A stretch of DNA of 35,040 nt, from NCBI GenBank assembly GCA_016218085.1, contig JACREY010000004.1, forward strand, positions 1-35,040, read 5' to 3'. Shown in pieces: positions 1,953 to 23,494 of this stretch. The notes below the pieces were generated by a model. It saw only the letters and a program-made list of their open reading frames with translations, was not told where the DNA came from and did no database searches. Position 1 is the stretch's first letter, and each line of letters begins with the position of its first letter. Source of the stretch: Ignavibacteriota bacterium (GTDB lineage Bacteria > Bacteroidota > Ignavibacteria > Tepidaquicellales > Tepidaquicellaceae). Both the position numbers and the translations under genes were made by a program.

Positions 1953-1976
1953 TTAATGATATAAAAACAGGATAAT

Positions 1977-2787: not shown

Positions 2788-2807
2788 GGGAATATTTTTA
2801 GGTATTT

Positions 2808-3857
2808 ATGGAAATTAGAATTGCAGATAGAAAAATAGGTTGTCAATGTCCGCCATTTATCATTGCCGAAATGTCAGGTAATCATAACCAGTCTTTGGAA
2901 AGGGCATTGGCGATTATTGAGGCGGCAGCAAAGGCAGGAGTTCATGCTATAAAACTCCAGACGTACACGGCAGATACTATGACTATTGATATAGAAGAGG
3001 GAGACTTTTATATTAATGACACGAATAGCCTATGGGAAGGTCAGTCCCTGTATAAGCTTTATCAGCAAGCTTACACTCCATGGGAATGGCATGAGCCTAT
3101 TTTTGATAAATGTAAAGAACTCGGCATTATATGTTTCAGCGCTCCTTTTGATGAAACAGCAGTGGATTTCCTTGAAAATCTTAACGTTCCCGCCTATAAA
3201 ATAGCGTCATTTGAAAACAATCATTTGCCTTTAATCCGAAAGGCAGCATCAACAGGAAAGCCTCTTATAATATCAACTGGTATGGCAAGCATAGCAGAAT
3301 TGGAAGAGGCTGTAAAAACCGCAAGAGAAGCGGGCTGCAAAGACATAGTTTTGCTTAAATGCACAAGCGCCTATCCTGCATCGCCGGAGGATACGAATTT
3401 ATTAACAATTCCTCATTTAAGGCAGCTTTTTAATGTTGAAGTCGGTCTATCAGACCATACTATGGGAATCGGTGTAGCTGTTGCAAGTGTAGCTTTAGGC
3501 GCAATTGTCATTGAAAAGCATTTCACTTTATCCCGTGCTGATGGAGGAGTGGACTCGGCATTTTCAATGGAACCATTGGAAATGAAACAGCTTGTGGATG
3601 AAACGCATAAGGCATGGCAGGCATTGGGAAAGGTTTCTTATAACCTGACTGAAAAAGAAAAGTCATCCATCAGGTTCAGGCGTTCAGTTTATGCAGTGCA
3701 GGACATAAATAAGGGTGAAAAGTTTACACCTGAAAATATCAGGATAATCCGTCCGGGGGGCGGTTTGCCTCCAAAATACTATGATATTCTTATCAGTAAA
3801 AAGGCATCATGTGATATTCAAAGAGGGACTCCCATGAGTTGGGAGTTTATAGCATAA
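2808..3857 (+). CDS. pseI: Pseudaminic acid synthase
   Basis: A 349-residue NeuB-family sialic-acid-type synthase that condenses phosphoenolpyruvate with a 6-carbon diamino sugar to give a nonulosonic acid. The N-terminal TIM barrel has AEMSGNHNQ (residues 20-28) and KLQTYTADTMT (about 49-59), a form more like PseI than NeuB or LegI. Further conserved stretches are CFSAPFD, SDHTMG and EKHFTLSR. The C-terminal antifreeze-like SAF domain covers about residues 290-347 (RSVYAVQDINKGE onward). Length is normal for the family. It is 20 bp after the HEPN toxin and 1 bp before the next MNT gene, so toxin-antitoxin genes flank it closely on both sides. A diverged 5' fragment of the same gene lies at 1424-1597. 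Confidence 0.9.
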   Translation: MEIRIADRKIGCQCPPFIIAEMSGNHNQSLERALAIIEAAAKAGVHAIKLQTYTADTMTIDIEEGDFYINDTNSLWEGQSLYKLYQQAYTPWEWHEPIFDKCKELGIICFSAPFDETAVDFLENLNVPAYKIASFENNHLPLIRKAASTGKPLIISTGMASIAELEEAVKTAREAGCKDIVLLKCTSAYPASPEDTNLLTIPHLRQLFNVEVGLSDHTMGIGVAVASVALGAIVIEKHFTLSRADGGVDSAFSMEPLEMKQLVDETHKAWQALGKVSYNLTEKEKSSIRFRRSVYAVQDINKGEKFTPENIRIIRPGGGLPPKYYDILISKKASCDIQRGTPMSWEFIA

Positions 3858-3858
3858 G

Positions 3859-4302
3859 ATGAGCAGAGACGACTTAATCAAAAAACTAAAAGATTTCTTT
3901 AACAAAAATGCCGATTTTTATGATATTGATATGGCGTTTCTTTATGGTTCATGGGCGAGGGGATTTCCAAAAGAGACATCTGATGTTGATATTGCTGTCT
4001 TTTTTTATCCAGAGAAGGATTCTGAAGATGAAGAATTCAATATAATTACGGATATTTCCCTTAAACTCTCAGAGATAATAAGAAAAGAAATAAATATTAT
4101 TTTAATCCGCACAGATTTCAGAAAACCGATGCTTTATTACAATGCAATTGTCTTAGGTCAGCCAATTTATATTAAAAATACTGAGAGATATATTTCATTA
4201 AAAAATGAGGTAATTTATCAGATGGAGGATTTCAGCATCTTCGGGATTGGATGGCAGCTTCTTATCGCCAAAGAGAATATAAGGAGGCTAATAAATGCCT
4301 GA
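3859..4302 (+). CDS. MNT-domain antitoxin, second pair
   Basis: A 147-residue minimal nucleotidyltransferase with G30-S31 in YGSWARGF and D42, D44 in SDVDIAVFF. It starts one base after the pseI stop and overlaps the following HEPN gene by 8 bp, so the pair sits within the glycan operon with no promoter gap. The likely role is an MntA-type antitoxin that modifies the partner HEPN toxin. It differs clearly from the MNT protein at 1977, so the two pairs are not recent duplicates. Confidence 0.8.
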   Translation: MSRDDLIKKLKDFFNKNADFYDIDMAFLYGSWARGFPKETSDVDIAVFFYPEKDSEDEEFNIITDISLKLSEIIRKEINIILIRTDFRKPMLYYNAIVLGQPIYIKNTERYISLKNEVIYQMEDFSIFGIGWQLLIAKENIRRLINA

Positions 4303-4741
4303 GTTTTCTTACGACAAGGGGCGGATTAGCGAGTCACTGCAGTACGTATTGAAAGAGATGGAAGAGTTTGAATCTGATTATTCAAAAAAGACTTGGAGCG
4401 ATTATCACTCTGATAAGAAGCTTCAAAAACTCATAGATAGAACTGTTGAGAATATCCTGACTGCTTTGATAGAAATTTGCGGAACTGTTCTAACACAGGA
4501 AGGAGTGAGCTGCGAGAGTTATAGTGATGTTTTAAAGAAAGCAGGACAACTTTTTGGATTCTCGGATGATGAGCAAGGAGCGCTGGCTAAATTAGCTATA
4601 CAAAGAAATAGGCTTGCTCACAGGTATCTGAATTTTCGCTGGCAGGCAATGAAATTTTACAGTGATAACAAGACGCTGATTCAAAAATTAGTATCTTTAA
4701 TACTTGAAATGGAAGTTAAAAAACAAGAAGGAAATTCATAA
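4295..4741 (+). CDS. HEPN-domain toxin (HepT-like), second pair
   Basis: A 148-residue DUF86-type HEPN protein with the motif RNRLAHRY (R104, H109, Y111), which fits R-x4-H-x-Y. It is the RNase toxin partner of the MNT protein it overlaps. The last 71 or so bases of its homologous part (4620-4690) occur again at 5558-5630, a sign of segmental duplication (see the direct repeat entry). The GNAT fragment follows immediately. Confidence 0.8.
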   Translation: MPEFSYDKGRISESLQYVLKEMEEFESDYSKKTWSDYHSDKKLQKLIDRTVENILTALIEICGTVLTQEGVSCESYSDVLKKAGQLFGFSDDEQGALAKLAIQRNRLAHRYLNFRWQAMKFYSDNKTLIQKLVSLILEMEVKKQEGNS

Positions 4742-4891
4742 TAACGCTCCCTTTTGCGAGTTTGTAAGATGAGAGCAGTATTTTTAGAGAGCAAAAATAT
4801 ATCTCTCAGTCCTTTATCAAAGGATGATAGTTTTGATAATTATGTAAACTGGTTAAATGATCAGGAGACAATGCTTTTTATGGGAAGTGGA
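4620..4891 (+). repeat. Direct repeat, copy 1 (HEPN 3' end plus GNAT 5' end)
   Basis: This 272-bp segment covers the 3' end of the HEPN gene and the first 41 codons of the GNAT gene. It recurs in two pieces, at 5558-5630 (3 mismatches in about 71 bases by eye) and 5907-6057 (4 mismatches in 151). In the second copy the stretch equal to 4691-4740 is missing, and two palindromic elements occupy its place. The near identity points to a fairly recent event. The antitoxin/PIN pair lies between the copies. Confidence 0.85.
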
Positions 4892-4945
4892 CAAAAGAGG
4901 GATGATAGTGGTATACCTTCAAGTCTTGGAGGTGATTTAAGATGA
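4769..4945 (+). pseudogene. Truncated 5' copy of the GNAT gene
   Basis: The first 41 codons are almost identical to the intact GNAT gene at 5935 (MRAVFLESKNISL and so on, through LFMGSG). After base 4891 the similarity stops abruptly and the frame runs through 17 unrelated codons to TGA. No acetyl-CoA-binding part remains, so it cannot be an active enzyme. Its last bases overlap the start of the antitoxin gene (ATGA at 4942-4945), so translation of the fragment may still feed into that gene. Confidence 0.88.
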
Positions 4946-5136
4946 TATTGATAAGACAAAAGGTAAAAGCAGAAGATGGGATTATCAACATCAGACTGCC
5001 TGATGACTTTAAAGGCAGTGTAGTTGATGTAGTTGTAAAGACAGAAGACGACCTCTCTGCAAGGCTTATGCTGGATACTGTGAAGATTGACACCATAAAA
5101 TGGAAATTTAACAGAGAAGAGATATATGGTGGATAG
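4942..5136 (+). CDS. Small antitoxin partner of the PIN toxin
   Basis: A 64-residue protein that starts behind a very strong ribosome-binding site, GGAGGTGAT at 4928-4936. It is predicted as an antitoxin because it overlaps the PIN-domain gene by 11 bp and has the size and charge pattern of VapB-type proteins. The N-terminal half looks like a short beta-rich DNA-binding module (VKAEDGIINIRLPDDFKGSV), and the C-terminal part (IKWKFNREEIYGG) would wrap the toxin. I do not recognise the exact antitoxin family. Confidence 0.65.
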   Translation: MILIRQKVKAEDGIINIRLPDDFKGSVVDVVVKTEDDLSARLMLDTVKIDTIKWKFNREEIYGG

Positions 5137-5533
5137 CATCTTTTTAGATTCCAATATTCTCATTTACGCCTATTCTGATACAGAAGCATGGAAAAGAGAG
5201 AAGGTTTTGTCCATTATTGAAAGTGGGAACATGACAATAAGCACACAGGTAGTGAATGAATTTATATGGATTATGAACAGAAAATACAGCATTTCCCTAA
5301 ATATCTTAAAAGCCATTGTAGGGAATATGTTTGAAATATTTAATGTCTCGTTAATTTCCAGAGGTGTTATTGATAATGCGATTGGTATATCAGAGAGGTG
5401 GGGATATACGTACTGGGACAGTTTAATATTATCGTCAGCATTAGAGACGGACTGCATGGCTATTTATACAGAGGACATGAGGCATGGACATATATTGGAT
5501 AATGGGTTAAAGATTACAAATCCATTTTTGTAA
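5126..5533 (+). CDS. PIN-domain toxin (VapC-like RNase)
   Basis: A 135-residue PIN-domain endoribonuclease. The four acidic residues that bind the metal are visible: D8 in FLDSNILIYAYS, E45 in VNEFIWI, D98 in YWDSLILSSA and D117 in YTEDM. VapC-type toxins cleave tRNA or rRNA when not bound by their antitoxin. The pair 4942-5533 lies in a 667-bp insert (4892-5558) between two near-identical copies of HEPN/GNAT sequence. It appears intact. Confidence 0.85.
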   Translation: MVDSIFLDSNILIYAYSDTEAWKREKVLSIIESGNMTISTQVVNEFIWIMNRKYSISLNILKAIVGNMFEIFNVSLISRGVIDNAIGISERWGYTYWDSLILSSALETDCMAIYTEDMRHGHILDNGLKITNPFL

Positions 5534-6480: not shown

Positions 6481-7264
6481 GATTTATTACTCTAAAAAAG
6501 TGAGGGATATGGCAGCTCCTATTTATAAAAAATTCTATACTACGGTATTTAGCAACAAAAAATCCAAATATATTTATCTCAAACTGGCAACTTTTCTATC
6601 AACACATGGATTCTCACCATTACTTGCGCCTTCTGCAACCTCTACAAAAGAGAGATGGCAAAGGCAAGGGACAGACGATTTGTTGACTACTCCTAAGACC
6701 TATATAAAAGAAGATAATTCAATTATTGAGCTTTTCAAAGAGGTTTTACCCTATTTAAATAAAAATAGCCCTATCTTAGAAATTGGCTGTAATGTTGGCA
6801 GGTCATTAAATTATTTGTATAAATTGGGATACAAAAATTTGACTGGCATTGAGATAGGACCAAGTGCAGTAGAACTGATGAAAGCGACATTTCCTGATAT
6901 GTATAGTAACAGCAATATCCTTATTGGAGATGCTCCAGGTCTAATTAAAGGGCTTAATACAGATGAATTCGACTTGGTTTTTTGCCACTCTGTTTTGGTT
7001 AACATTCATCCAAAATATAATTATATATTTGAAGAAATGGCGCGGATTAGCAAAAAATTTATTTTGATTTTGGAAAATGAGGGAAGCTATACAGCATATC
7101 CCAGGGATTTTAAAAAGATGTTTGAAAAGCAACGATATAAAATGGTCGTGAGCAAGGTGTTTTCAGGGGCTTGTTCCTCATTGACTGTGCCTTTTGAAGA
7201 AAAGCATATATATGAAAATAATACGATTCGTCTTTTTGCAAAGGACAAATCGTCTTTCAAATGA
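6461..7264 (+). CDS. Class I SAM-dependent methyltransferase
   Basis: A 267-residue protein with a Rossmann-type methyltransferase core in its second half. Motif I is ILEIGCNVGRSLNYL (about residues 106-120), followed by the acidic residue of LTGIEIGPSAV at the end of strand 2 and FDLVFCHSVLVNI as motif IV. The N-terminal 80 or so residues are a basic, helical extension. The start at 6461 overlaps the GNAT gene by 20 bp; ATG 6509 after GTGAGGG is an alternative. Its stop overlaps the next start (ATGA). In this context it probably methylates a sugar hydroxyl or a sugar intermediate, but the substrate cannot be read from the sequence. Confidence 0.75.
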   Translation: MNTLKDKIYYSKKVRDMAAPIYKKFYTTVFSNKKSKYIYLKLATFLSTHGFSPLLAPSATSTKERWQRQGTDDLLTTPKTYIKEDNSIIELFKEVLPYLNKNSPILEIGCNVGRSLNYLYKLGYKNLTGIEIGPSAVELMKATFPDMYSNSNILIGDAPGLIKGLNTDEFDLVFCHSVLVNIHPKYNYIFEEMARISKKFILILENEGSYTAYPRDFKKMFEKQRYKMVVSKVFSGACSSLTVPFEEKHIYENNTIRLFAKDKSSFK

Positions 7265-9306
7265 AGGTCAGATTTTTTAGTTATCTCACCGCTTTTCATG
7301 TAATATCAATATATCTTTCCCCAAGGTCATATAATGAAATCTACTATTTTAATATCTCTAAGATTGGCGATTTTTTGCTTGGTTTATTTAGGAGAAGGCA
7401 ACAGATTAAACTGTTTGAATTTAGCTTTTCTGAAATAAAAGATAACTCTGGAGAAAATTATTTCCCACGAATATACGGTAAAGATTTAATTTCTGTCTGT
7501 GATGTCATAGAGGAGGAAATATTTAAGAAGAACCCATTTATTAATACATTTGGCAAAATGTTTAATCTGGAAAAGGTTCGGCTTTATTTTAGAAAGATTG
7601 CCGGTAGAGAAGTAAATGATATCGTTGTGTTTATAAATATTATAGTCTGGTATCGACAGCAGTTTCTAGAAGGGAAGCCTGATGAAGTTGAATTTTCTAT
7701 TGAGAAGACTCCCTTCTTTGATATATTAAAAGAGTTTGCTTTAAAAGAGCATGATGTGGTTTTAAGCTCACATTTCTCCCTCAGAAAATTTTTCAAATAT
7801 TTTTACAGGTTTGGAGGAAATTTATATCTTTCAACCCTTGTGTGTATTAAAACAATTATAGATACCGTAAGGGTTTCTAACGGGGCAGTCACTCAAGGCA
7901 GAGATAATAGAATTCCATTAATATCAAGTCTGTATTCATTGAAGGGGTTTACATTTGATTTAATTCATCGCTGTGATTTTCCATGGCTGTTAATGTCTAA
8001 TACCCCTCATGAGCAGGTATTAATCTATTTTGAAAGAAAAGACGCACCCGCCACAGATGATATGGTGGATATATTAGAACAACAAAGAATAAACTTTATG
8101 GCGATGTCTAATGGCGCAGCCGCTTCAAAAAGGATGCCTGTATATAAACCGTCAATTAGAGCCGCAAAATTGTTGTTTGACTATACAGTTAAAATTCTTT
8201 TTCTTGCATATAAAGAAATTTTGAACCGCAGATTAGAATCATTGGTATATTTAAGTGAAGCGCTGCATTTTATAAGGGAATATTCAAAGGCATATGATTT
8301 TTATTATTCAAATGGCATCAAAATAAATATAGACTTTATTGACCATGATCCATATAGAATAGCCCGGCACCTTGCGCTTGAAGCAAATGGAGGTGTAAGC
8401 ATAAGCCATCAAGCGTCTAATTGGCCGATACCCAATGTAATTTTAGGGTCATGTGCCGATATTATGTTCCTATTTGGACCTTATTATTATCAAACATTTA
8501 TTAGAAGCGGAACCTGTAATCATAGCATTATTTTTTGCGGATATATAACGGACTACTCCTTTATTGCTGTCAAAGAACGTTCAGAAAAATTGAGAGAAAA
8601 ATTGGTGGACAATGGGGCAAAATTCGTTATCTGCTATTTTGATGAAAATTCGTCTGATGGCAGGATGAGTGTTATTCCAAACAGTAGAAGCGTATTGATT
8701 TATAAACATTTTCTAAATTGGGTGCTTCTTGACAAAACCATTGGTTTAATCTGCAGTCCAAAACGTCCTAAGACTTTACAAGTAAGACTGTCTGAAATAA
8801 CCGGGCTTATAAAAAAGGCAAAAGATACAGGCAGGTGTATATTCATGGAAGGCGAATATGCCGCAAAAAATTACCCTACCGAGGCAGCGCAGGCATCTGA
8901 TATTGTAATTTCTTTATTGTTAGGGGGAACCACTTCTTTAGAAAACTTTTTGTCAGGTGCAAGGGTAGTTTATCTGGATTTAGAAGGACTGTATTCATAT
9001 CCCGAATATAAATGGGGGCGAGATACGATTGTCTTTGATGATATTGATAATCTGATGTCAGCAATCAATAAATATCGTAGTGATAGTAAATCATTTGACG
9101 AGTTGGGCAACATTAATATGGTGGCTACCATAAAGCAAAAAGATCCATTCCATGATGGAAAGGCAGCAGAGAGGATGGGGCGGTATATAAATTGGCTCCT
9201 TGAGATGTTTAATCAGGGTAAGACAAGAGAAAAGGCTATAGAATATGCCAATGAGAAATATGCTAAAATATGGGGCAGTGAAAACATTACAAGGATTAAG
9301 GGATAA
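7261..9306 (+). CDS. Large glycosyltransferase-like protein 1 (unassigned)
   Basis: A 681-residue soluble-looking protein I cannot assign to a named family. The C-terminal half resembles a GT-B-type surface-glycan transferase: GGVSISHQASNW (about residue 380), then FGPYYYQTF and GYITDYSF, and near residue 550 DIVISLLLGGTTSLENFLSG followed by ARVVYLD. The order of a His-containing loop, a G-x-x-x-x-x-F segment, and a Ser/Thr-rich loop before a small-residue strand also occurs in the 12554 and 25580 proteins. The N-terminal 300 residues look unlike the other two. It overlaps the upstream methyltransferase by ATGA. A CMP-sugar or CDP-polyol donor would fit the neighbouring cytidylyltransferases, but that is inference. 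Confidence 0.5.
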   Translation: MKVRFFSYLTAFHVISIYLSPRSYNEIYYFNISKIGDFLLGLFRRRQQIKLFEFSFSEIKDNSGENYFPRIYGKDLISVCDVIEEEIFKKNPFINTFGKMFNLEKVRLYFRKIAGREVNDIVVFINIIVWYRQQFLEGKPDEVEFSIEKTPFFDILKEFALKEHDVVLSSHFSLRKFFKYFYRFGGNLYLSTLVCIKTIIDTVRVSNGAVTQGRDNRIPLISSLYSLKGFTFDLIHRCDFPWLLMSNTPHEQVLIYFERKDAPATDDMVDILEQQRINFMAMSNGAAASKRMPVYKPSIRAAKLLFDYTVKILFLAYKEILNRRLESLVYLSEALHFIREYSKAYDFYYSNGIKINIDFIDHDPYRIARHLALEANGGVSISHQASNWPIPNVILGSCADIMFLFGPYYYQTFIRSGTCNHSIIFCGYITDYSFIAVKERSEKLREKLVDNGAKFVICYFDENSSDGRMSVIPNSRSVLIYKHFLNWVLLDKTIGLICSPKRPKTLQVRLSEITGLIKKAKDTGRCIFMEGEYAAKNYPTEAAQASDIVISLLLGGTTSLENFLSGARVVYLDLEGLYSYPEYKWGRDTIVFDDIDNLMSAINKYRSDSKSFDELGNINMVATIKQKDPFHDGKAAERMGRYINWLLEMFNQGKTREKAIEYANEKYAKIWGSENITRIKG

Positions 9307-9364: not shown

Positions 9365-10840
9365 GTGGCATTAAGCGAAAAAAGCATAAGGAATATATTT
9401 ATTTATTCCTTTCCAAAATTTGCAGGCTACGGAATGACTTTAATTACACTTCCTGTTCTTACAAGGCTATTAACCCCCGAAGATTTTGGCATTATAATAT
9501 TGACAGCGGTTTTTCCGACTATAGCTGTAAATGTTTTAACTCTTGGTTTAGTGTCTGCTGCACAGAGATATTATTTTGAATATCGGGCAGACAGCGAAAA
9601 AATAGATGCGCTTATATTTTCATCTCAGATATTTTTATATTTATCGCTAGTTGTCTCTTTATTTGTAGTTTTCTTTTTAAAAGATTATATTTCACAATTG
9701 ATTCTTGGAAATACCAAATACGGAATGGCAGTTTTTGTAATGTTTATTGCTGCTTTTTTAGGACAAATTATAAATTTCTACTTATGCATATATCAGAATA
9801 TGGAGAAGGCAGCGACTCATTCAAAATTTACGATTATTAAAACAGTTTTTACCAGCATAATTAGCCTGCTGTTGGTATGGTATTTTGAAATGTCATATAT
9901 GGGCATGATTTATGGTTCCTTTATTGGAGCTTTTATTGTATGCGGCTTGATATTCTTTCAATTTAATAAGAATCACAAATTAAATTTTAGCAGTAAAATA
10001 CTTTTTGAAAACATAAAGTATGGACTTCAGATAATGCCAAAGTCATTGTCAGGTTTTATCGACAAGTTTTTTGACAAATATATGTTGAATAATATGGTAT
10101 CTCTATCCGCAGTTGGAGTTTATAATATAGGGCAGACTGTTGGGAATACAATGTTTTTCTTAATGAGCACAGTTTGGTCATCGTTTCAACCAGTCTATTA
10201 TAAAGAAATATTTGATAAAGGCAAAGACGGCTCAGTATCAGCGGGGAGAATTTTTACAATATTTGCTTATATTGCTTTAATGCCGGTGCTGCTGATTATC
10301 CTCTTTGCCCAGGAGATAATCCATATTATTGCCCCGGCTCCTTATCATGATGCGGTTGACATAATTATTATAATATCAGGTGGAGTTGCCACGCAGACAT
10401 TTGGAATGTATGTGGGAGTTCAATACGCATATACTAAGAAGGCTTACTGGATATTCCCTGTTGCTGTAGTTGGCACTATTTCAAATGTGGCAGCAAACAT
10501 AGTCTTGATTCCAAGATTTGGTTTGATTGGGGCAGGATTTTCCACAGTAATCAGCACTTGTATAGTTAATGGTATTCTGACTTTTATGGGACAGAAATTA
10601 TACAGGATTCAGTATGAGTGGCGAATAATAACTAAACTATACGCAATTATAACTTCAGCAATAGTTCTTATTTTATACCTTAGGGTCATAGAATTTAACG
10701 GTGTTTCAGCATACTTGTTTAAATTAACTTTTATTGCTTTTTTTATATTTGCAGGGATTAAAGCAAAGCTAATTACGAGGCAATCAATTGAAAAAGTTCA
10801 AAGCGCTTTGTTCAATTTTTCGAAAAGAGAAAGGGCATGA
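9365..10840 (+). CDS. wzx: Wzx-type polysaccharide flippase
   Basis: A 491-residue polytopic inner-membrane protein of the MOP/MATE-like exporter superfamily. The N-terminus IFIYSFPKFAGYGMTLITLP is a typical first helix, followed by VLTRLLTPEDFG, the conserved loop of Wzx/RfbX proteins. About 12-14 hydrophobic segments are visible along the chain. It would flip lipid-linked repeat units across the inner membrane. The start is GTG at 9365; no good ribosome-binding site is seen, and a hairpin lies just upstream. Its stop codon overlaps the ATG of a methyltransferase remnant (ATGA at 10837-10840). Confidence 0.85.
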   Translation: MALSEKSIRNIFIYSFPKFAGYGMTLITLPVLTRLLTPEDFGIIILTAVFPTIAVNVLTLGLVSAAQRYYFEYRADSEKIDALIFSSQIFLYLSLVVSLFVVFFLKDYISQLILGNTKYGMAVFVMFIAAFLGQIINFYLCIYQNMEKAATHSKFTIIKTVFTSIISLLLVWYFEMSYMGMIYGSFIGAFIVCGLIFFQFNKNHKLNFSSKILFENIKYGLQIMPKSLSGFIDKFFDKYMLNNMVSLSAVGVYNIGQTVGNTMFFLMSTVWSSFQPVYYKEIFDKGKDGSVSAGRIFTIFAYIALMPVLLIILFAQEIIHIIAPAPYHDAVDIIIIISGGVATQTFGMYVGVQYAYTKKAYWIFPVAVVGTISNVAANIVLIPRFGLIGAGFSTVISTCIVNGILTFMGQKLYRIQYEWRIITKLYAIITSAIVLILYLRVIEFNGVSAYLFKLTFIAFFIFAGIKAKLITRQSIEKVQSALFNFSKRERA

Positions 10841-10923: not shown

Positions 10924-12417
10924 ATGTCTAAACTTAAAGTCTTATTTCTTTATCCTAACCTAATGTTGCAGACTGGTTTTCCGATGGCTACCTGTACCTT
11001 TTCAGCCATATTGAAACAAGAGGGGTTTGATGTTGAACTGTTCGATACTACTTTTTACAGAACAGAAGAAACTACATCTGATGAAGCGAGAGTGGCAAAT
11101 CTCCAGGTAAAACCATTTGATTTAGGCGAGAAATTCAGAGGTTTGAAGGACAAAGAACAAATATTTGAAGACCTTGTGGAAAAGGTTCGGCAATATAAAC
11201 CGCATCTGATAGCTATATCAATACTGGAGGATGTATTTCCGCTGGCAGTTGAACTGTTGAGGGCGATTGAACATTTCAACATTCCTGTAATTGCTGGAGG
11301 TGTTTTCCCGACATTTGCGCCTGAGATTGTAATTTCTGAGAAAGCTGTAACAATGGTGTGTATTGGCGAAGGAGAGGAAGTTCTTATTGAACTATGCAGG
11401 AAACTTTCAGATAATGAAGATATTTCAAGAGTGCATAATCTATGGGTAAAGCGGCATGAAGAAATAGTTAAGAACCCCATACGTCCTTTAAGAAATATTA
11501 ACCTGAATCCTCTGCCTGACTTTTCAATTTTTCATGGTGACAGGTTTCTGAAACCAATGAAAGGAAAATTGCGCAAGATGGCGCCTGTTGAAACACACAG
11601 AGGGTGCCCTTATTCATGCTCTTTCTGTAATTCAGGCTCGCAAAAGGAGTTGTACAAGAGCGGAACAGGAGAAAAATTTCTAAGGCTGAAGGAAGTAGGA
11701 CGGATACATGATGAGATAAAAATACTGATTGAGAAATATGGCGTTGAATATATATATTTTCCGGCGGACACCTTTCTTGCGATGAGCAGAGACTATTTGC
11801 ATGAGTTTACAAAAATGTATAAAAAATTTGCGCTCCCTTTTTACTGTCAGACAAGAGCTGAGACCATTAATGATGAAACAGTCAGATGTCTCGGAGAGAT
11901 GAATTGCCATAGCCTCTCAATAGGTATAGAACACGGGAATGAAGACTTCAGGTATAAACTTCTTAAAAGAAAGGTTTCAAACAAGATATATATTGACTCA
12001 ATCAAGCTGTTGGAGCAAAGCAATATAATGGTATCTGTTAATAACGTAATAGGGTTTCCCGACGAGACGCGAGAACTTGCTTTCGACACAATTAATCTAA
12101 ATAGAGAATTCAATGCCTATGCGCATAATGCATATTATTTTACCCCCTATCATGGAACCCCATTGCGTGAATATTGTGTGGAGAAAGGATATATTTCCGG
12201 GGATGCCCAGACTGTGAATATTACAAAAGGCACGGTTCTAAATATGCCGCAATTCCCGCAGGACGAGATAAAAGGTCTGGTAAGGACATTTACGCTCTAT
12301 GTGAAATTCCCTGAAGATAGGTATAAGGAAATTGGCATTGCGGAAAAATTCACCGCTGAAGGCAATATGATGTTCAAAAAGCTTCAGCAGGAGTTCTGGC
12401 AGAAATATTTCAAGTAA
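10924..12417 (+). CDS. B12-binding-domain radical SAM protein
   Basis: A 497-residue protein with an N-terminal cobalamin-binding-like domain and a radical SAM domain. The former shows the start KVLFLYPN, ILKQEGFDVELFDTTF, PHLIAIS, IPVIAGGVFPT and IGEGEE (about residues 5-152). The radical SAM cluster motif is RGCPYSCSFCN with C228, C232 and C235. The C-terminal part has SIGIEHGNEDFR and NVIGFPDET, usual in this group. No DxHxxG cobalamin lower-axial motif is obvious. Class members methylate unactivated carbons or rearrange substrates; in glycan loci the substrates are mostly unknown. GGGAG at 10911-10915 is the likely ribosome-binding site. A palindromic element follows the stop by 7 bp. Confidence 0.82.
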   Translation: MSKLKVLFLYPNLMLQTGFPMATCTFSAILKQEGFDVELFDTTFYRTEETTSDEARVANLQVKPFDLGEKFRGLKDKEQIFEDLVEKVRQYKPHLIAISILEDVFPLAVELLRAIEHFNIPVIAGGVFPTFAPEIVISEKAVTMVCIGEGEEVLIELCRKLSDNEDISRVHNLWVKRHEEIVKNPIRPLRNINLNPLPDFSIFHGDRFLKPMKGKLRKMAPVETHRGCPYSCSFCNSGSQKELYKSGTGEKFLRLKEVGRIHDEIKILIEKYGVEYIYFPADTFLAMSRDYLHEFTKMYKKFALPFYCQTRAETINDETVRCLGEMNCHSLSIGIEHGNEDFRYKLLKRKVSNKIYIDSIKLLEQSNIMVSVNNVIGFPDETRELAFDTINLNREFNAYAHNAYYFTPYHGTPLREYCVEKGYISGDAQTVNITKGTVLNMPQFPQDEIKGLVRTFTLYVKFPEDRYKEIGIAEKFTAEGNMMFKKLQQEFWQKYFK

Positions 12418-12553: not shown

Positions 12554-14485
12554 ATGAAAAGGATTGTTCTTTTAGAGTTCTACGAAGAGTTTGCAGAGTT
12601 TCAGGAATATATCAGGAGTAATGGATTAGATATAACTGAATTTTCACTTGTAGTTCTGCATCTAAAACTTCAGGCACAACTGAAAAAAGCGGGCATACAA
12701 TTCAGCAATACACTGCCTTATCTTAAAAATGATGTCTTTGAGCGGATACTGCTTAAGTTTGACGACATACGTAAATACATCGAAGATAATTTTGATTTTG
12801 AGGATGAAAAGAATGTAATGACTGCCTATAAAGCGGAATTGCTGCATTACCTTGAACTGGTTGTTAATTATATAGGCGGGATATCGGAGATCCTTCAGAA
12901 TATTTATGATGAAGACAAAGATATAGAGCTTTATGTATGCTCAAAAAATTATATTAGCAGTTCCGTTTTTATTTCTGAAGACAAGATAATGGGATTGTTA
13001 GTAGAAAAATTTGCAACCAAAAAAAATATAGGGTTTCATCAGTTTGTACCATCGGACCGGCAGGACATGAAAAGTCAGAGAAATTGTATAATCCCTAAAA
13101 AGCGGTCGCCGGTCTATCCATTCTTCTTTAATTTGCTTAAATATTATTTGAGATTATTTAATAAAGCCCATATAGTTATTCCAACAACAGATTATGGTTT
13201 TAAGAAATTGTTAGGCGAGATAAAGAGGAGGAACAGTGACTTATTGTTTGTAATACCTTATGATATAGAAGATGTAAAATGGTATAAAAAATATGGAGGG
13301 TTGATATCCGGCATATTTGGCGGGAAGGTTTTTATAGATATTAATGTGATCCCATATGATGAATGTACGAATGAGCAAAATGTCCTAAGAGAAAAAGTTG
13401 ACATGCTTTTAAAAGGAATGCCGGAAAATCTTTATGACTTCTGCGGGATTGACTGCATGGACATTATCAAAAGCAAGGTGAAAGCTGCCATTACTGAACA
13501 TCTCTGCATGATGGTTCAGCGATCACATCAGATGTTTAATCTTGTAAACCAATTTAATGTCAGGATATTTATGTCCCCATTCGGGAGGGGTAGCTGGTAC
13601 GTTACTGCTGAACTTTTAAAGAAAATGGGCAAGGTCTCCTTGTTTATTTCTCACGGAACACATCCTGTTCCGACAAACCAATATCATGAGATCTCGATAT
13701 TCAATATGTGCAGAGGCTTCATGCTTGGTGATTACAGCCATGTTGCAGTCAGCACGCCAGTTCAGGAGGCACATCTGCATTATTTCAAGGACAAATACAA
13801 GTGGATCAAAAATACGGAGGTTAAGTCAGGCCCGCTTATTTTCTCGAACTTAAACGGTGTGGACAGGTCTGAACAAAAAAAGAGGCTGGGGTTTTCTCCG
13901 GATGAGGTTGTCTTAACCCATGCAACCAGCACAAAAGTCAGGGGAGCGGAGAGGTACTATTTCCTTGAGACCCCTGACGAGCTTTTTGCAGGGCTTTCTG
14001 ATATCGTTGATGCTGTCAACAAGATGCAAAACACAAGACTGATAATCAGAATACATCCAGGTTTTTACCTTTCAGATGAAGAGATAAGAACCCTTCTGCC
14101 ACCTTCGGATAAATATATTATAAACCGGAGTGGACCTTTTATCGATGTGCTTGCCGCAACCGATATTATGATAAGCTATTCCTCAACTACCATTGACGAA
14201 GCTCTGCTTAACGGGATACCTGTATTGCTCTATGACAGATGGAACAGGTATAATCACTTCCAGACTGGAATCTTTGAAAATTCCGAGTCTGCGGACATTT
14301 TCCCTGTCTGCTATGTAAATAACGCAGAAAAACTTGAGCAAGCATTGAATTTTATGCTCGAAAAAAAAATGATGGCAAAACATGGAGATATGGATTTTCA
14401 CAGATATAAATACCCGGTTGACTACCGTGAGGATTTTTTCAGGTTCATCGGGGAAACATTGAATGTGGAAGGAGGAGGAAAATGA
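12554..14485 (+). CDS. Large glycosyltransferase-like protein 2 (unassigned)
   Basis: A 643-residue protein without membrane segments. The C-terminal half looks like a GT-B fold with SLFISHGTHPVPTNQ (about residue 365), RIHPGFY (HP motif, about residue 500) and MISYSSTTIDEALLNGIPVL (about 540-560). This pattern resembles the CDP-glycerol phosphotransferase and bacterial sialyl/Kdo-transferase-like groups, in which an HP motif and a Ser/Thr-rich loop bind the cytidine nucleotide. The N-terminal 300 residues are not recognised. It overlaps the first cytidylyltransferase gene by ATGA, which supports use of a CMP- or CDP-activated donor made next door. The leader is formed by the adjacent repeat, with no ribosome-binding site seen. 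Confidence 0.55.
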   Translation: MKRIVLLEFYEEFAEFQEYIRSNGLDITEFSLVVLHLKLQAQLKKAGIQFSNTLPYLKNDVFERILLKFDDIRKYIEDNFDFEDEKNVMTAYKAELLHYLELVVNYIGGISEILQNIYDEDKDIELYVCSKNYISSSVFISEDKIMGLLVEKFATKKNIGFHQFVPSDRQDMKSQRNCIIPKKRSPVYPFFFNLLKYYLRLFNKAHIVIPTTDYGFKKLLGEIKRRNSDLLFVIPYDIEDVKWYKKYGGLISGIFGGKVFIDINVIPYDECTNEQNVLREKVDMLLKGMPENLYDFCGIDCMDIIKSKVKAAITEHLCMMVQRSHQMFNLVNQFNVRIFMSPFGRGSWYVTAELLKKMGKVSLFISHGTHPVPTNQYHEISIFNMCRGFMLGDYSHVAVSTPVQEAHLHYFKDKYKWIKNTEVKSGPLIFSNLNGVDRSEQKKRLGFSPDEVVLTHATSTKVRGAERYYFLETPDELFAGLSDIVDAVNKMQNTRLIIRIHPGFYLSDEEIRTLLPPSDKYIINRSGPFIDVLAATDIMISYSSTTIDEALLNGIPVLLYDRWNRYNHFQTGIFENSESADIFPVCYVNNAEKLEQALNFMLEKKMMAKHGDMDFHRYKYPVDYREDFFRFIGETLNVEGGGK

Positions 14486-15147
14486 GAATAGTTGGGTTAA
14501 TTCCTGCAAGGCTTGGCACCGACAAGGTGCCTTTCCAGAACATAAAAGATATTGGCGGTATACCGCTTGTCAATTATACTGTAAGGACTATGAACAAGGT
14601 TAGACTGTTGGATGATATAGTAGTCTTCTCTTCAGAGCCCTCTATCTGTGATTATATCTATCAGGGTCTCAGATACAAGTATCTTGAAAGGCCCGCATAT
14701 CTGAATGCATCGGAAACCAAGGTCCATGATATCATTAAAGAATTTTTAAAGAATGACGATGCGGATATAATTGTCCTTTGGCATATTATATCGCCGTTTC
14801 TTACGCCATCTACCATAAATGAGTGCATTGAACAGGTCAGAGCAGGGAAATACAATTCGGCATTTACAGCTATTGAAATTAAAAAATTCTGCTGGTTCAA
14901 CGGCAAGCCTCTCAATTATTCCCTCTCACAGCCTACGCCGCGCACACAGGACATACTACCTCTTATAGTTGAACAGGGGCATCTGTATGTTTTCAGGAGA
15001 GAGGTTTTTGAGAAAACAAAACAGAGGCTCGACCAAAACCCTTATATTAAAATAATAGACCATTTTGAAGCCCATGAAATAAGCAGCCTTGAGGATTTCA
15101 GGATTGCAGAGCTGATTGTCAATACAGGTTTTTTTGATCTTGACTGA
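14482..15147 (+). CDS. NeuA-like cytidylyltransferase, tandem copy 1
   Basis: A 221-residue nucleotidyltransferase of the CMP-sialic acid/CMP-Kdo synthetase family. It opens with IPARLGTDKVPFQN, but the conserved lysine of the family's P-x-K-N ending is Q here. The LERPAYL stretch (about residues 69-75) is retained. The usual T-S-P-x-R segment is ISPFLTP, lacking the Thr and the Arg. The later P-x-P-R-x-Q substrate motif is kept as PTPRTQD. The strong ribosome-binding site GGAGGAGG precedes the ATG. It is about half identical by eye to the next gene. The loss of the lysine suggests reduced activity alone, or a different substrate or subunit role. Confidence 0.75.
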   Translation: MRIVGLIPARLGTDKVPFQNIKDIGGIPLVNYTVRTMNKVRLLDDIVVFSSEPSICDYIYQGLRYKYLERPAYLNASETKVHDIIKEFLKNDDADIIVLWHIISPFLTPSTINECIEQVRAGKYNSAFTAIEIKKFCWFNGKPLNYSLSQPTPRTQDILPLIVEQGHLYVFRREVFEKTKQRLDQNPYIKIIDHFEAHEISSLEDFRIAELIVNTGFFDLD

Positions 15148-15149
15148 AG

Positions 15150-15806
15150 ATGAAAATTGTTGCCTTCACACCTTCCAGACTGAATAGCCAGAGAGTTCCT
15201 CAAAAAAATATAAAAATGTTAGGGAGGATGCCGCTGGTAAATTATGCCCTTGAGACAATGAACAGAATAATGTCCATAGACGAAATAGTCATATTTGCTT
15301 CCGAGTCCTCGATCTGCAATTATATAAGGCCTGACCTTAAATACCGGTTAATAGAAAGACCTGCTTTCCTGGACACACAGGAGGCCAAGGTGCAGGATCT
15401 GATTAGGGAGTTTTTAAAGGCAAATGATGCAGATATAATACTGATGTTTCACCTTACCTCGCCTTTTTTGAGGCCTGAAACTGTTGATGAATGCATTGAG
15501 AAGGTCAGGGATGGGGAATATGACTCGGCCTTTACCGCCTTCAGTATAGACAGGAGGTGTTGGTTTAAAGGCAGGCCGTTGAATTTCTCCAGCATAAATG
15601 GAAATACAGGGAAACTAGAACCTGTGATAGTAGAACACAGTCTCTATATATTTAGAAGAAAGGTCTTTGAGACAACAGGACGGAGAATTTCCGTTAACCC
15701 GTATATAAAGATTGTCGACCAAATTGAAGGCCATGATATTGATACACCGGAAGATTTCAGGATTGCTGAACTAATCGTAAATACGGGATTGTTTGAGCTT
15801 AAATGA
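15150..15806 (+). CDS. NeuA-like cytidylyltransferase, tandem copy 2
   Basis: A 218-residue paralogue of the preceding protein. It keeps the nucleotide-binding start in the form PSRLNSQRVPQKN, including the lysine missing in copy 1, and LTSPFLRP with both the Thr and the Arg. In contrast the P-x-P-R-x-Q motif is absent (NGNTGKLEP occupies that region). Both proteins end with the EDFRIAELIVNTG stretch. The family transfers CMP from CTP to a 2-keto-3-deoxy sugar acid. It starts 2 bp after copy 1 and is followed closely by the cyclase gene. A heteromer with copy 1 is an inference from the complementary motif pattern. Confidence 0.78.
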   Translation: MKIVAFTPSRLNSQRVPQKNIKMLGRMPLVNYALETMNRIMSIDEIVIFASESSICNYIRPDLKYRLIERPAFLDTQEAKVQDLIREFLKANDADIILMFHLTSPFLRPETVDECIEKVRDGEYDSAFTAFSIDRRCWFKGRPLNFSSINGNTGKLEPVIVEHSLYIFRRKVFETTGRRISVNPYIKIVDQIEGHDIDTPEDFRIAELIVNTGLFELK

Positions 15807-15810
15807 AACT

Positions 15811-16944
15811 ATGCACAGCAGAATAATAAAAACATATCAGGTATCTCTTGATAAATCTGCCTATGAAATCATAATCGGCAAAGATATTGTATGCACTATC
15901 AGCCAATTCCTTGTTGAAAGAACACAAGACAAAAGGGTTTTGATCGTTATTGATAATTTTTTCAGGGCAAAAATATTAGACCCGCTGGTGCAGTCGCTGT
16001 CAGATGTCGGATTTTCAGTATATGTTCATAATTTTGAGGCAGGCAAGCAGCACAAGAATATAAACGAGGCAATGAAGATATACGAGGTCTTGGAGGGCAA
16101 TGATTTTGCGCGCGATTCGACTCTGATTGCAATAGGCGGCGGCGTTATAGGGGATATTGCCGGTTTTGTTGCAAGCACATATCTGCGGGGGATGAACCTT
16201 ATCAATGTGCCTACAACACTAACAGCTATGATAGACAGCAGCATCGGCGGAAAGGTGGCTATCAACTTCAGAAAGACTGTTAACTCAATTGGGAATTATT
16301 ACCATCCCATGCTGAATATAATAGACCTTCAGTTCACTGATACGTTGCCGGAGCGGGATTTTAAGGCCGGATTGGCAGAGATTATCAAATGCTCCATTAT
16401 CTGCGACAAGGAATTGTTCAATTATCTTAATGAGAATTATTCCGAAGTAATGAGTCGTGAAGATGCTGTTTTACTCGAGATATGCAGTAGGGCAATAGAG
16501 ATAAAACTTGACCATGTTAAGGATGATGTTAAGGAACAAAATAAAAGGCTCAAACTTAACTATGGTCACACGCTTGGTCATGCTATAGAAACATCCACTG
16601 GAATTTTTGAGGAAGTTTATCGTCATGGTGAAGGGGTCTCCCTTGGGATGGTCGGTGCGGCATATATCGCTATCGGGCATTTTAATCAGGGTGACGGGGT
16701 TATAAACAGGCATGAAGAAATCCTCCAAAGATACGGCCTCCCTGTTAGGGTTGAATCAGGCAGTATTGGTTTTGGAAGGGAAAAGCTCATCAGGGAATGC
16801 TTGAGGAATATTTTGAAGGATAAAAAAAGGAAGGGTAATAAGTTAAGATTCATTCTGCCCGTATCCATAGGAAAATGCGAGGTATTTAATAATATTGATG
16901 ATAAATTAATAGAAGGGGCATTTGATTATCTGATAAGACAATGA
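15811..16944 (+). CDS. 3-dehydroquinate-synthase-like sugar phosphate cyclase
   Basis: A 378-residue member of the DHQ synthase superfamily, NAD- and metal-dependent cyclases of sugar phosphates. It has GGGVIGD (about 109-115), PTTLTAMIDSSIGGK (K148), GLAEIIK (E190, K193), LNYGHTLGHAIE (H253, H257) and HGEGV (H272). The metal ligands E190, H253 and H272 are kept, as is R246. The G-K-N motif of true DHQ synthases reads TVN here, so its lysine is V157. ATG 15811 is preferred; an in-frame TTG at 15793 would overlap the previous gene. Placement between cytidylyltransferases and an SDR argues for a glycan cyclitol rather than the shikimate pathway, but an ordinary aroB role cannot be excluded. Confidence 0.75.
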   Translation: MHSRIIKTYQVSLDKSAYEIIIGKDIVCTISQFLVERTQDKRVLIVIDNFFRAKILDPLVQSLSDVGFSVYVHNFEAGKQHKNINEAMKIYEVLEGNDFARDSTLIAIGGGVIGDIAGFVASTYLRGMNLINVPTTLTAMIDSSIGGKVAINFRKTVNSIGNYYHPMLNIIDLQFTDTLPERDFKAGLAEIIKCSIICDKELFNYLNENYSEVMSREDAVLLEICSRAIEIKLDHVKDDVKEQNKRLKLNYGHTLGHAIETSTGIFEEVYRHGEGVSLGMVGAAYIAIGHFNQGDGVINRHEEILQRYGLPVRVESGSIGFGREKLIRECLRNILKDKKRKGNKLRFILPVSIGKCEVFNNIDDKLIEGAFDYLIRQ

Positions 16945-17705
16945 TGAGCAAACAATTTTCGGTAAAAGAAAAAGTTTGCATAATAACCGGTGCAGGCAAG
17001 GGCATAGGGAGAGAGGCAGCGCAGCTCTTTTACAGTGAAGGCGCTGCTGTAGCGCTTATTACGAGAAATATGGACGACCTTAGATCTCTGAAAAAAGAAT
17101 TGATGTTTGATGACAGCAGGGTATTACTATACAGCGGAGATGTTTCAGATGAAGAAACCGTAAAGAACTTTGTGAAAGAATCCATGAATAAATTTCAAAG
17201 GATTGATGTCCTCATAAACAATGCAGGAATGAGGTTCAGAAAACAATTCCTTGATACAACGACTGAAGAATGGGATAAGGTCATAAATACAAATCTCAAC
17301 AGTGCGTACTTCTTTTGCAGGGAAGCGGGACGACATATGGTCGAACAAAAAAGTGGAAAGATTATAAATATTGCTTCTATTGTTGGAACCCTTGGACTCC
17401 CTGAGCTCACAGCGTATGGGGCCTCTAAAGGAGGGATGATTACTCTCACAAAATGCCTTGCGCTTGAATGGGCGGAATATAACATTAATGTTAATGCTAT
17501 TGCGCCTGGTTTTTGTGAAACATCGTATGCTGAAGATTTTAAAAAGAAAGCAGAATTGTATAAATTTACCATTGAGAGAATTCCACAGAAAAACTGGGGC
17601 GCTTCTATTGATATTGCTAATGCCTGCCTGTTTCTTGCTTCTGATGCAGCAAAATATATCACCGGAGAGGTGTTAAATGTTGACGGTGGCTGGAGCGCAT
17701 GGTAA
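16941..17705 (+). CDS. Short-chain dehydrogenase/reductase (SDR)
   Basis: A 254-residue classical SDR, about the usual length. It has TGAGKGIG (16-23) for NAD(P), NNAG (93-96), the catalytic S146, Y159 and K163 in YGASK, and the C-terminal YITGEVLNVDGGWSAW ending common to FabG-like oxidoreductases. It overlaps the cyclase gene by 4 bp, so it probably reduces or oxidises the cyclase product. A diverged copy of just its last 20 codons is found at 18674-18736, beyond the MNT/HEPN pair. Confidence 0.88.
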   Translation: MMSKQFSVKEKVCIITGAGKGIGREAAQLFYSEGAAVALITRNMDDLRSLKKELMFDDSRVLLYSGDVSDEETVKNFVKESMNKFQRIDVLINNAGMRFRKQFLDTTTEEWDKVINTNLNSAYFFCREAGRHMVEQKSGKIINIASIVGTLGLPELTAYGASKGGMITLTKCLALEWAEYNINVNAIAPGFCETSYAEDFKKKAELYKFTIERIPQKNWGASIDIANACLFLASDAAKYITGEVLNVDGGWSAW

Positions 17706-21590: not shown

Positions 21591-22520
21591 ATGATTCCTG
21601 AGAGTAATGAAATAAGAATAGAGGTTTCGACCAAGTGCAACTATGATTGCATAATCTGTCCTCGGGAGAAACTTACCCGAAATGTAGAGATTATGAGCTT
21701 TGAGTTGTTTAAATATATCTTAGATAAGGTCAATTCAGAAGTTTCTCAATATAATACCCTTACATTTCCAGGGATGGGAGAACCATTGCTTGATGAGGGT
21801 ATTGAGGATAAAATCTTATATGCAAAAAAACAGGGCTTTACTGTTCTTATGCTTACAAATGGCTCGCTCCTGACGGTAGATAAGTTCAAAAGGCTTGATG
21901 ATATGGGTGTCAGATCTATAAGGGTAAGCATGTATGGTGACTCGCCTGAATCGTATAATGCAGTACATGGAATAAGAAATGAAAATATATTCAAGACGAT
22001 AAAGAAAAATCTTACTGAAATATCAGAGATTAAAAAACATACGAAGCTTCTGCTTACTTATAATATTGTCGACGGTTATAACGATTCGGATGTCGGACCA
22101 TGGACTGAATATTGGAGCAAAAAAGTTGATTTACTGGAAGTTTGGCGCCCTCATAACTGGGTTGACGGCAAGAACTACAGGACTGTAGAACAAAAAAAAA
22201 TGAAAACCTGCGGCAGGCCATTCAAAACGCCGCTACAGGTACAAGTTGACGGAACGGTTAATATGTGTTGTTTTGATTTTGACGGGAAACTATTATTGGG
22301 CGACCTCAGGACACAGACACTTAAGGAGATATTTGAATCATCCATGTTTAATAGGATAGCGGATTGCCATACGAGCGGAAACTATGAAGGAAGCGGTCTG
22401 ATCTGTGAGAATTGTGACCAGAGAAATGAAGACAAGTCGGGGGTTATGATTTATAATTCAAGATTTGATATTAATGAAAGATTGCACAAGGTGTCAACAA
22501 CATACACGGATATTGTATGA
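21591..22520 (+). CDS. SPASM/Twitch-type radical SAM enzyme 1
   Basis: A 309-residue radical SAM protein. The cluster motif is KCNYDCIICP with C16, C20 and C23, followed by LTFPGMGEPLLDEG (the GGEP-like SAM-binding strand) and TNGSLL. In the C-terminal part, cysteines at KTCGRPF, VNMCCFDFDG, and LICENCDQ match a SPASM-type domain holding one or more auxiliary iron-sulfur clusters. GGAGG at 21581-21585 is the ribosome-binding site. Family members oxidise alcohols (BtrN-like), modify peptides or act on sugars; the glycan locus favours a sugar or cyclitol substrate. Its stop overlaps the next gene (ATGA). There is an A9 run at 22192-22200 within the gene. Confidence 0.82.
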   Translation: MIPESNEIRIEVSTKCNYDCIICPREKLTRNVEIMSFELFKYILDKVNSEVSQYNTLTFPGMGEPLLDEGIEDKILYAKKQGFTVLMLTNGSLLTVDKFKRLDDMGVRSIRVSMYGDSPESYNAVHGIRNENIFKTIKKNLTEISEIKKHTKLLLTYNIVDGYNDSDVGPWTEYWSKKVDLLEVWRPHNWVDGKNYRTVEQKKMKTCGRPFKTPLQVQVDGTVNMCCFDFDGKLLLGDLRTQTLKEIFESSMFNRIADCHTSGNYEGSGLICENCDQRNEDKSGVMIYNSRFDINERLHKVSTTYTDIV

Positions 22521-23494
22521 ACGCTGATATAGATATACTGTCTGAAATAATTAAGGTCATAGATATTGAGATAAGAGGTATTCAAAACCTGAAAAACCAG
22601 GTGAATGTCTCATTTGAAAAAGCGGTTAAAGAAATTTATCACTGTCGCGGCAAGGTTGTTCTGTCCGGCATGGGTAAATCAGGCATCATCGCAAAAAAAA
22701 TCGCATCTACAATGTCAAGCATCGGGACACCTGCAACGTTTATGCATCCGGCAGAAGGCATGCATGGTGATATCGGCATGATGACAGCAGACGATATATT
22801 TATCGCTATTGGAAAAAGCGGCGAAAGTTCCGAACTTAACAGCATTCTTCCAGTCATAAGAAAAATTGGCATTAAAATAATTGCAATAACCTGCAACAGT
22901 AAATCGACCCTTGCAAGACTTTCCGATATTGTTCTTGACATAGGTGATAGCAATGAGGCGTGTCCATTTAACATGGCGCCGACTACAAGTTCAACGGCAA
23001 CCCTCGTAATCGGAGATGCTATAGCAGTTGTTTTGATGCGTATGCGAGGATTTGAACTCGATGATTATGCGATTCTGCACCCCGGCGGCCGCCTTGGCAG
23101 GAGGCTAACAATGAAGGTTAAAGATATTATGCTGAAGGAATATGATAATCCTGTAATTAATATTTCAGATAGTATAAAAAATTGCATTATGAAGATTTCT
23201 GAAAAACAGGCAGGCGCCGTTTCAGTAATAGCTGACAATGGCAAGCTTATTGGGCTTGTTACAGATTATGATATTCGGAAGCATCTTGAAAAAGAAGAAA
23301 ATATATTTACCATGACAGTCTCACAGATTATGAACTCGAATCCGATTTATGTTTACGAAGATGATAAGGCATTTGAATCTCTGGAATTTATGCAGAAAAG
23401 GGAGAGGCCAATAACTGTCATGCCGGTCATAGACAGCAACAATAGTGTTGTTGGAATGCTGAGATTGCAGGATCTTGTGAGAGCCGGATTGTGA
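22517..23494 (+). CDS. kdsD: KdsD-like SIS-CBS sugar phosphate isomerase
   Basis: A 325-residue protein with an N-terminal SIS domain (about residues 35-165) and two CBS repeats (about 200-320), the layout of D-arabinose 5-phosphate isomerase. It shows SGMGKSGIIAKKIASTMSS, HPAEGMHGDIGMM, IAIGKSGESSEL and HPGGRLGRRL, all typical of KdsD/GutQ/KpsF. The enzyme makes arabinose 5-phosphate for Kdo. In a capsule or O-antigen locus it can be a dedicated paralogue (KpsF type) or serve a related ketose. It overlaps the upstream radical SAM gene by 4 bp. The 122 bp after the stop contain a 28-codon open frame with no recognisable function. Confidence 0.88.
   Translation: MNADIDILSEIIKVIDIEIRGIQNLKNQVNVSFEKAVKEIYHCRGKVVLSGMGKSGIIAKKIASTMSSIGTPATFMHPAEGMHGDIGMMTADDIFIAIGKSGESSELNSILPVIRKIGIKIIAITCNSKSTLARLSDIVLDIGDSNEACPFNMAPTTSSTATLVIGDAIAVVLMRMRGFELDDYAILHPGGRLGRRLTMKVKDIMLKEYDNPVINISDSIKNCIMKISEKQAGAVSVIADNGKLIGLVTDYDIRKHLEKEENIFTMTVSQIMNSNPIYVYEDDKAFESLEFMQKRERPITVMPVIDSNNSVVGMLRLQDLVRAGL

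Follow-up and report, generated by a model that had tools for sequence, protein, structure and literature searches.

The 35,040-nucleotide contig JACREY010000004.1 of an Ignavibacteriota bacterium (hereafter the window; the entire contig C13 of assembly G000, 3.3 Mb in 22 contigs and rated 98% complete) carries a polysaccharide locus, truncated at both contig ends, that includes a block of five genes with a probable role in the synthesis of an activated surface sugar. The five open reading frames (ORFs) encode a large transferase-like protein (GT643), two cytidylyltransferases (CT1 and CT2), a 3-dehydroquinate synthase (DHQS) homologue (the cyclase) and a short-chain dehydrogenase/reductase (SDR). 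They lie on the same strand with overlaps or gaps of 2–4 bases, confirming the tight coupling and order given in the initial annotation of the window, and Pfam scans upheld the identities of the cytidylyltransferases, the cyclase (DHQ_synthase and DHQS_C domains) and the SDR (adh_short_C2). The block combines enzymes of known kinds in a new way, and the chances are slightly better than even that it supplies a surface polysaccharide with a cytidine monophosphate (CMP)-activated carbocyclic sugar acid, a reading in which we infer the substrate, the product, the order of steps, the site of CMP attachment and the roles of the transferases.

The block cyclase is not a housekeeping AroB. Although it is the sole DHQS match in the G000 genome, no chorismate synthase was found in this 98% complete assembly, nor was there a match in 26 of 28 genomes from the same genus or family or in any of the 15 same-order genomes, so that the lineage as a rule appears to be without the chorismate pathway. 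Two members of the family differ from their relatives, with an ordinary DAHP synthase-aroB-aroD-like cluster kept in G017 (L011) and a chorismate synthase present in G024, which indicates a loss or gain of the pathway during the history of the family. Two other genomes with the block, G442 and G443, possess the block cyclase in addition to a separate canonical AroB and a chorismate synthase, the true AroB of G442 sitting after shikimate kinase. Phylogenetically, the six block cyclases, drawn from five genomes and a viral contig, group as a single clade (support, 100/99) to the exclusion of ValA, DDGS, BtrC and all 46 canonical AroBs. The counter-case raised in the initial annotation, a cyclase clustering with true AroB as the only copy available to the shikimate pathway, is thus contradicted by the separate clade, the second copy in two genomes and the lack of chorismate synthase. 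A shikimate-pathway AroB merely located in a polysaccharide locus would account for the complete DHQS active site (see below) and for the score against the NCBIfam aroB equivalog TIGR01357 (321.8 bits; cut-off, 305), but, given this evidence and the constant company of an SDR and a cytidylyltransferase, this explanation is largely refuted and very improbable. The other block cyclases score 304.1–323.6 bits against the same model; the true AroBs with which they coexist in a genome reach 353.0 and 369.1 bits.

Conservation of the block was explored using CT1 and CT2 in a scan of one genome per species (84,980 species), which returned two orthologous blocks, L048 in an Alphaproteobacteria metagenome-assembled genome (MAG) and L049 in an Omnitrophota MAG (genomes G442 and G443). 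Among 384 genomes sampled from the phylum of L049, two more possess the cyclase (G690, locus L060, 60% identity; G685, locus L061, 52%). The search for the same genes elsewhere, proposed in the initial annotation, thus shows the block conserved in L048, L049 and L060, with a variant form in L061. The window and L049 share the order GT681 (a second large transferase-like protein), flippase-like protein, B12-binding/radical SAM enzyme, GT643, CT, cyclase and SDR. L048 has two CTs, as in the window, and an FkbM methyltransferase between the cyclase and the SDR, and continues with radical SAM and KpsF genes that occur in the window at 21.6–23.5 kb. L060 retains CT, cyclase, SDR and a GT681 homologue, and in L061 the cyclase and SDR are followed by a Kdo (3-deoxy-D-manno-octulosonate) transferase homologue (PF04413, 97.9 bits) and a CMP-Kdo synthetase (TIGR00466, 171.6 bits; cut-off, 155.2). 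The SDR lies directly 3' of the cyclase in the window and in four of the five other loci (the exception is L048), while SDR and CT homologues occur near all six block cyclases and near none of 44 ordinary AroBs (flanks mostly ~1.5 kb). The non-AroB cyclase and its co-conserved CT bear out the proposal that a surface-polysaccharide locus contains a dedicated cyclase pathway linked with cytidylyl activation.

Beyond these loci, a phylum-wide search of the relatives of the window (395 genomes) detected nothing closer than ~39% identity (best E value, 1e-68), and no additional block member was found in the class of G442 (385 genomes). In plasmid and phage collections, the nearest plasmid CTs were 34% identical and the two loci inspected had no cyclase. 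The cyclase matches in these collections (~35% identity) were rejected as they look like ordinary AroBs, including a Lactococcus plasmid aroB adjoining shikimate dehydrogenase.

The residues scored in the alignment of the cyclases were R130, D146, K152, N162, E194, K197, K250, E260, R264, N268, H271, H275, H287 and K356, which we take to be the substrate, zinc and catalytic positions of DHQS in A. nidulans numbering. All 14 are retained in the block cyclases, as is the glycine-rich NAD loop (GGGVIGD or GGGVVGD). The initial annotation had pointed to a change from G-K-N to T-V-N as support for a shifted substrate. The change is present in the window cyclase, and all six block cyclases have valine or isoleucine in place of the lysine, a position occupied in the 46 canonical AroBs by lysine (44) or arginine (2). 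This lysine (position 161; K161 in A. nidulans, K151 in E. coli) is presumably an NAD+ contact, in line with UniProt and structural annotation of the two enzymes, so the substitution is no argument for a shifted substrate, the substrate residues themselves being kept. The loss of a contact in all six, unseen in the compared AroBs, ValA, DDGS and BtrC, could reflect a cyclase without NAD-dependent chemistry that takes a keto sugar acid made beforehand and performs only part of the reaction on it, such as the elimination of phosphate or a simple aldol closure; this is hardly credible, however, with the NAD loop and the other catalytic residues intact and a single contact rarely being essential. 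By analogy with established DHQS structures, the residues retained at 250, 264, 268 and 275 presumably bind 3-deoxy-D-arabino-heptulosonate 7-phosphate (DAHP), K250 and R264 lying at its carboxylate.

Signatures of the cyclases that make neutral cyclitols are absent. ValA and DDGS differ from DHQS by K250M, N268D/A and H275P, and BtrC by R264G and N268E, whereas the block cyclases carry neither the EEVS/DDGS signature (K, N and H at 250, 268 and 275) nor that of 2-deoxy-scyllo-inosose synthase (R and N at 264 and 268). Each signature reference is a single sequence (ValA, the A. variabilis DDGS and BtrC), and these three were also the references in the tree besides the AroBs; the BtrC and DDGS sequences were confirmed against PDB 2d2x and 5tpr, and ValA was taken from the 4p53 alignment.

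The best clue to the line of substrates comes from L075, a single case whose viral status is by catalogue entry. L075 belongs to a contig of 35 kb that IMG/VR lists as viral, and has the gene order cyclase (51% identical to that of the window), SDR (62%), a small protein with a borderline MptE-like score (33.9 bits versus 34.6) and a weak sialyltransferase PHROG match, and a 498-amino-acid fusion. The fusion joins a CMP-transferase-like domain (CTP_transf_3, PF02348, 31.8 bits; cut-off, 22.6) to a DAHP synthase domain scoring 361 bits against TIGR01361 (cut-off, 267.75) and 103.5 bits against Kdo 8-phosphate (Kdo8P) synthase (cut-off, 314), and thereby ties the cytidylyltransferase to the substrate line of the cyclase; a single locus would thus code for making DAHP, closing the ring, reducing it and transferring CMP. 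The locus surfaced in an alignment scan; a single-protein viral scan had returned no block member, and further viral scans gave no second clear member among the matches listed.

Two other viral contigs are of note. In L076:7887-10402 (IMGVR_UViG_3300047994_000374, 394 kb), a ValA-like cyclase (42% identical to ValA, with M, D and P at 250, 268 and 275) has an SDR immediately after it and then a nucleotidyltransferase with a weak match, possibly a virus-encoded pathway for an activated C7-cyclitol. In L077:5627-8813 (IMGVR_UViG_3300035034_002799, 85 kb), a protein fusing a CMP-transferase to a cupin precedes an SDR and a diverged AroB-like protein in which histidine aligns at the K197 position; the three genes are consecutive and seem to be an independent CT-SDR-cyclase trio.

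CT1 and CT2 are paralogues (55% identical) that match CTP_transf_3 (55.0 and 54.8 bits) and, in the PDB, NeuA/CMAS (CMP-Neu5Ac synthetases), and on sequence they belong to the NeuA/PseF/KdsB group. The known products of this group are CMP-ulosonates, formed on unphosphorylated hydroxyls, so of the CMP- or cytidine diphosphate (CDP)-activated unit first suggested, CMP is expected and CDP is not. Both proteins score far under the PseF cut-off (TIGR03584; 65.4 and 55.6 bits; cut-off, 205.7), and as a true PseF (293 bits) is encoded beside a PseI elsewhere in the G000 genome, CT1 and CT2 would be dispensable for pseudaminate and were ruled out as the PseF partner of the PseI in the window. The genome has two PseI-type synthases, one on contig C3 near 421613 (L069) with its own PseF and one at 2808–3857 of the window, close to where the contig breaks off on the left and ~2 kb from a GNAT-acetyltransferase-like ORF (26–514, by eye).

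The NeuA/PseF-like character of the CTs, together with the PseI at 2808 and a KpsF (an enzyme of Kdo precursors) common to the window and L048, would also suit two separate sugars, with CT1 and CT2 activating an ordinary ulosonic or nonulosonic acid and the cyclase and SDR providing the glycan with a decoration of a different origin, a cyclitol or quinate. This is unlikely, though it retains some weight: no ulosonate synthase was found in the 20 kb around L048 and L060 or inside the L049 block, and CT, cyclase and SDR nevertheless remain together in these three loci. The L075 fusion adjoining the cyclase and SDR and the dedicated PseF elsewhere in the genome also count against it.

DHQS closes DAHP, a 3-deoxy-ulosonate, into a ring that has CH2 where an ulosonic acid has its ring oxygen, and the phosphate is lost. 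The product, 3-dehydroquinate, can be viewed as a carbocyclic version of an ulosonic acid, since a single carbon bears both the hydroxyl and the carboxylate, like C2 of Kdo and sialic acid. In the proposed route to a CMP-activated carbocyclic acid, the repurposed DHQS would cyclise a DAHP-type 3-deoxy-heptulosonate 7-phosphate, with loss of phosphate, and so give 3-dehydroquinate or an isomer close to it, an alpha-hydroxy acid with CH2 replacing the ulosonic ring oxygen, and the SDR would reduce the ring ketone to give a quinate-like acid. CT1 and/or CT2 would then attach CMP to the tertiary hydroxyl beside the carboxylate; in the carbocycle this hydroxyl corresponds to the anomeric one on which NeuA and KdsB act. 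The unit may be transferred by GT643 and/or GT681 and would probably be modified by the B12 radical SAM enzyme. NeuA/KdsB-type enzymes act with CTP on a free hydroxyl adjoining a carboxylate, and because the cyclisation loses the phosphate, activation of this type fits better than a CDP-forming enzyme. Homologues of CMP-sugar transferases stand beside the cyclase-SDR pair in L061 (the Kdo transferase) and perhaps in L075. Kdo8P, a candidate substrate prompted by KpsF and KdsB, was rejected on reasoning only, as its phosphate is one carbon too far and a seven-membered ring would result.

Several observations weigh against this pathway. Five of the six block cyclases pass the aroB equivalog cut-off, so sequence scores alone would name them AroB, and the GT-B-type fold of GT643 (see below) is poorly supported. 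The main weakness is that no DAHP synthase was found in G000, where PF01474 (class II) has no match and the sole PF00793 match is a Kdo8P synthase (390.6 bits; cut-off, 314). The enzyme may have been missed, since the assembly is 98% complete and the contig ends inside the locus, or DAHP may be made otherwise, e.g., by a 2-keto-3-deoxy aldolase (an HpcH/HpaI aldolase occurs in L060), or the substrate may differ. Further, a CMP ester without a neighbouring ring oxygen could form no oxocarbenium ion and its transfer would be unusual, though pseudo-glycosyltransferases such as VldE are known. Due to the undetected DAHP synthase and the unusual transfer chemistry, the assignment of the substrate is held at moderate confidence.

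With sedoheptulose 7-phosphate and glucose 6-phosphate being general metabolites, the undetected DAHP synthase would be less of a problem for a neutral cyclitol (valiolone or scyllo-inosose, respectively) activated with CMP or CDP. The 2-epi-valiolone synthase (EVS) clade of sedoheptulose-phosphate cyclases, which lies outside the references compared, resembles DHQS by sequence, as the ebo-operon paper warns (PMC5133447). A neutral cyclitol is nonetheless rather improbable, as the positions that differ in ValA/DDGS and in BtrC are all of the DHQS type in the block cyclases, which do not group with ValA or DDGS, and L075 encodes a DAHP synthase alongside its cyclase. Overall, the initial interpretation is partly supported and right in kind: a carbocyclic unit stands, with an acid better supported than a neutral cyclitol, CMP in place of CDP and a different argument for specificity.

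GT643, a GT-B-like transferase in the initial annotation, has no Pfam match and its PDB sequence search was empty. Its C-terminal half has weak NCBIfam surface-carbohydrate/glycosyltransferase matches (29.6 and 19.8 bits, far under the cut-offs), and although the best Foldseek matches to its AlphaFold model are of the GT-B type (UDP-GlcNAc 2-epimerase, VldE and LpxB), these have TM scores <0.3 and the model is poor (pLDDT, 54.7; pTM, 0.52). GT643 is likely, but with weak support from the model, a GT-B-type glycosyltransferase, the structural matches being too poor for assignment to a glycosyltransferase family. Homologues of GT681 occur in L048 (50%), L049 (38%) and L060 (27%), and the flippase-like protein is 59% identical in L049 and 31% in L048. 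The B12/radical SAM enzyme is the most conserved gene of the window-L049 pair (83%; 73% in L048), and its nearest solved structure is AprD4 (51 bits), an enzyme whose substrate is a cyclitol-containing antibiotic intermediate. Coordinates are given in Table 1.

Table 1. Genes of the block and associated genes in the window.
Feature	Position	Strand	Remarks
GT681, large transferase-like, no Pfam family	7261..9306	+	co-conserved with the block
Flippase-like, multi-pass	9365..10840	+	by sequence appearance; adjoins the block in L049 and L048
B12-binding/radical SAM enzyme	10924..12417	+	among the most conserved genes of the block
GT643, transferase-like, 643 aa	12554..14485	+	candidate CMP-donor transferase; GT-B fold probable but weak
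CT1, NeuA/PseF-like cytidylyltransferase (PF02348), 221 aa	14482..15147	+	
CT2, CT1 paralogue, 218 aa	15150..15806	+	
Cyclase, DHQS homologue, 383 aa from TTG	15793..16944	+	alternative start ATG at 15811
SDR reductase, 254 aa	16941..17705	+	
Radical SAM (SPASM-like, by eye)	21591..22520	+	common to the window and L048 (71%)
KpsF/GutQ-type sugar-phosphate isomerase	22517..23494	+	common to the window and L048 (68%)

Elsewhere in the window, the region 514–5533 of the polysaccharide locus contains, by eye, several nucleotidyltransferase/HEPN-like pairs (1977/2344 and 3859/4295) and a PIN-like ORF (5126) that resemble toxin-antitoxin modules, with a further HEPN-like ORF at 18191. Between 21591 and 28318, the radical SAM/SPASM-like ORFs at 21591, 24627 and 27446 match each other weakly and are interleaved with other ORFs. 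In G690, L060:201-3008 comprises four consecutive genes, for a HAD-like protein, the HpcH/HpaI aldolase, a fructose-6-phosphate aldolase/transaldolase and a SIS protein resembling GmhA. These may supply the block or constitute a further sugar-acid pathway.

Among open-licence papers, we found none on AroB-like enzymes linked to CMP activation in polysaccharide loci. The broader proposition is that a natural DAHP-derived, CMP-activated carbocyclic analogue of ulosonic acids of the Kdo/sialic type is made via a repurposed AroB and polymerised by bacteria, perhaps also by viruses, that it represents an undescribed class of glycan building block and that its genes spread as a cassette between phyla; we regard this as evenly balanced. 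If true, an AroB-type enzyme, normally serving aromatic amino acids, would be placed in surface glycan synthesis and a carbocyclic acid would join the known bacterial sugars. CMP-activated carbocycles would provide hydrolysis-resistant glycan units, with relevance to phage receptors, immune recognition and carba-sugar chemistry. The gene class is one that automatic annotation would label AroB, here in a genome seemingly unable to make chorismate.

Compared to AroB (TIGR01357), the block cyclases share the fold family, ~29–39% identity with the AroBs compared and the active site, but differ in their own clade, in the valine or isoleucine at the NAD-contact lysine and in their occurrence in polysaccharide loci with an SDR and CMP-transferase and no tie to chorismate. 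TIGR04425 (AroB-related putative sugar phosphate phospholyase) is likewise a hypothetical family of AroB paralogues with a predicted role in sugar-phosphate cyclisation, but the cyclase scores 221 bits against it (cut-off, 400) and true AroBs 238–241. Recruitment to dedicated pathways is a trait in common with the DHQS homologues making neutral cyclitols, from which the block cyclases differ in substrate-site residues and in phylogeny. CT1 and CT2 share PF02348 with NeuA, PseF and KdsB and resemble the CMP-Neu5Ac synthetases in the PDB, but fall far under the PseF and KdsB cut-offs and are paired with a cyclase and SDR rather than with NeuB or KdsA. The nucleoside diphosphate (NDP)-C7-cyclitol pathways of validamycin and acarbose also combine an AroB-type cyclase, a reduction and the nucleotide activation of a carbocycle; whereas these place guanosine diphosphate (GDP) or another NDP on a phosphorylated neutral cyclitol, the block is predicted to use an unphosphorylated acid and CMP, in cell-surface glycan loci.

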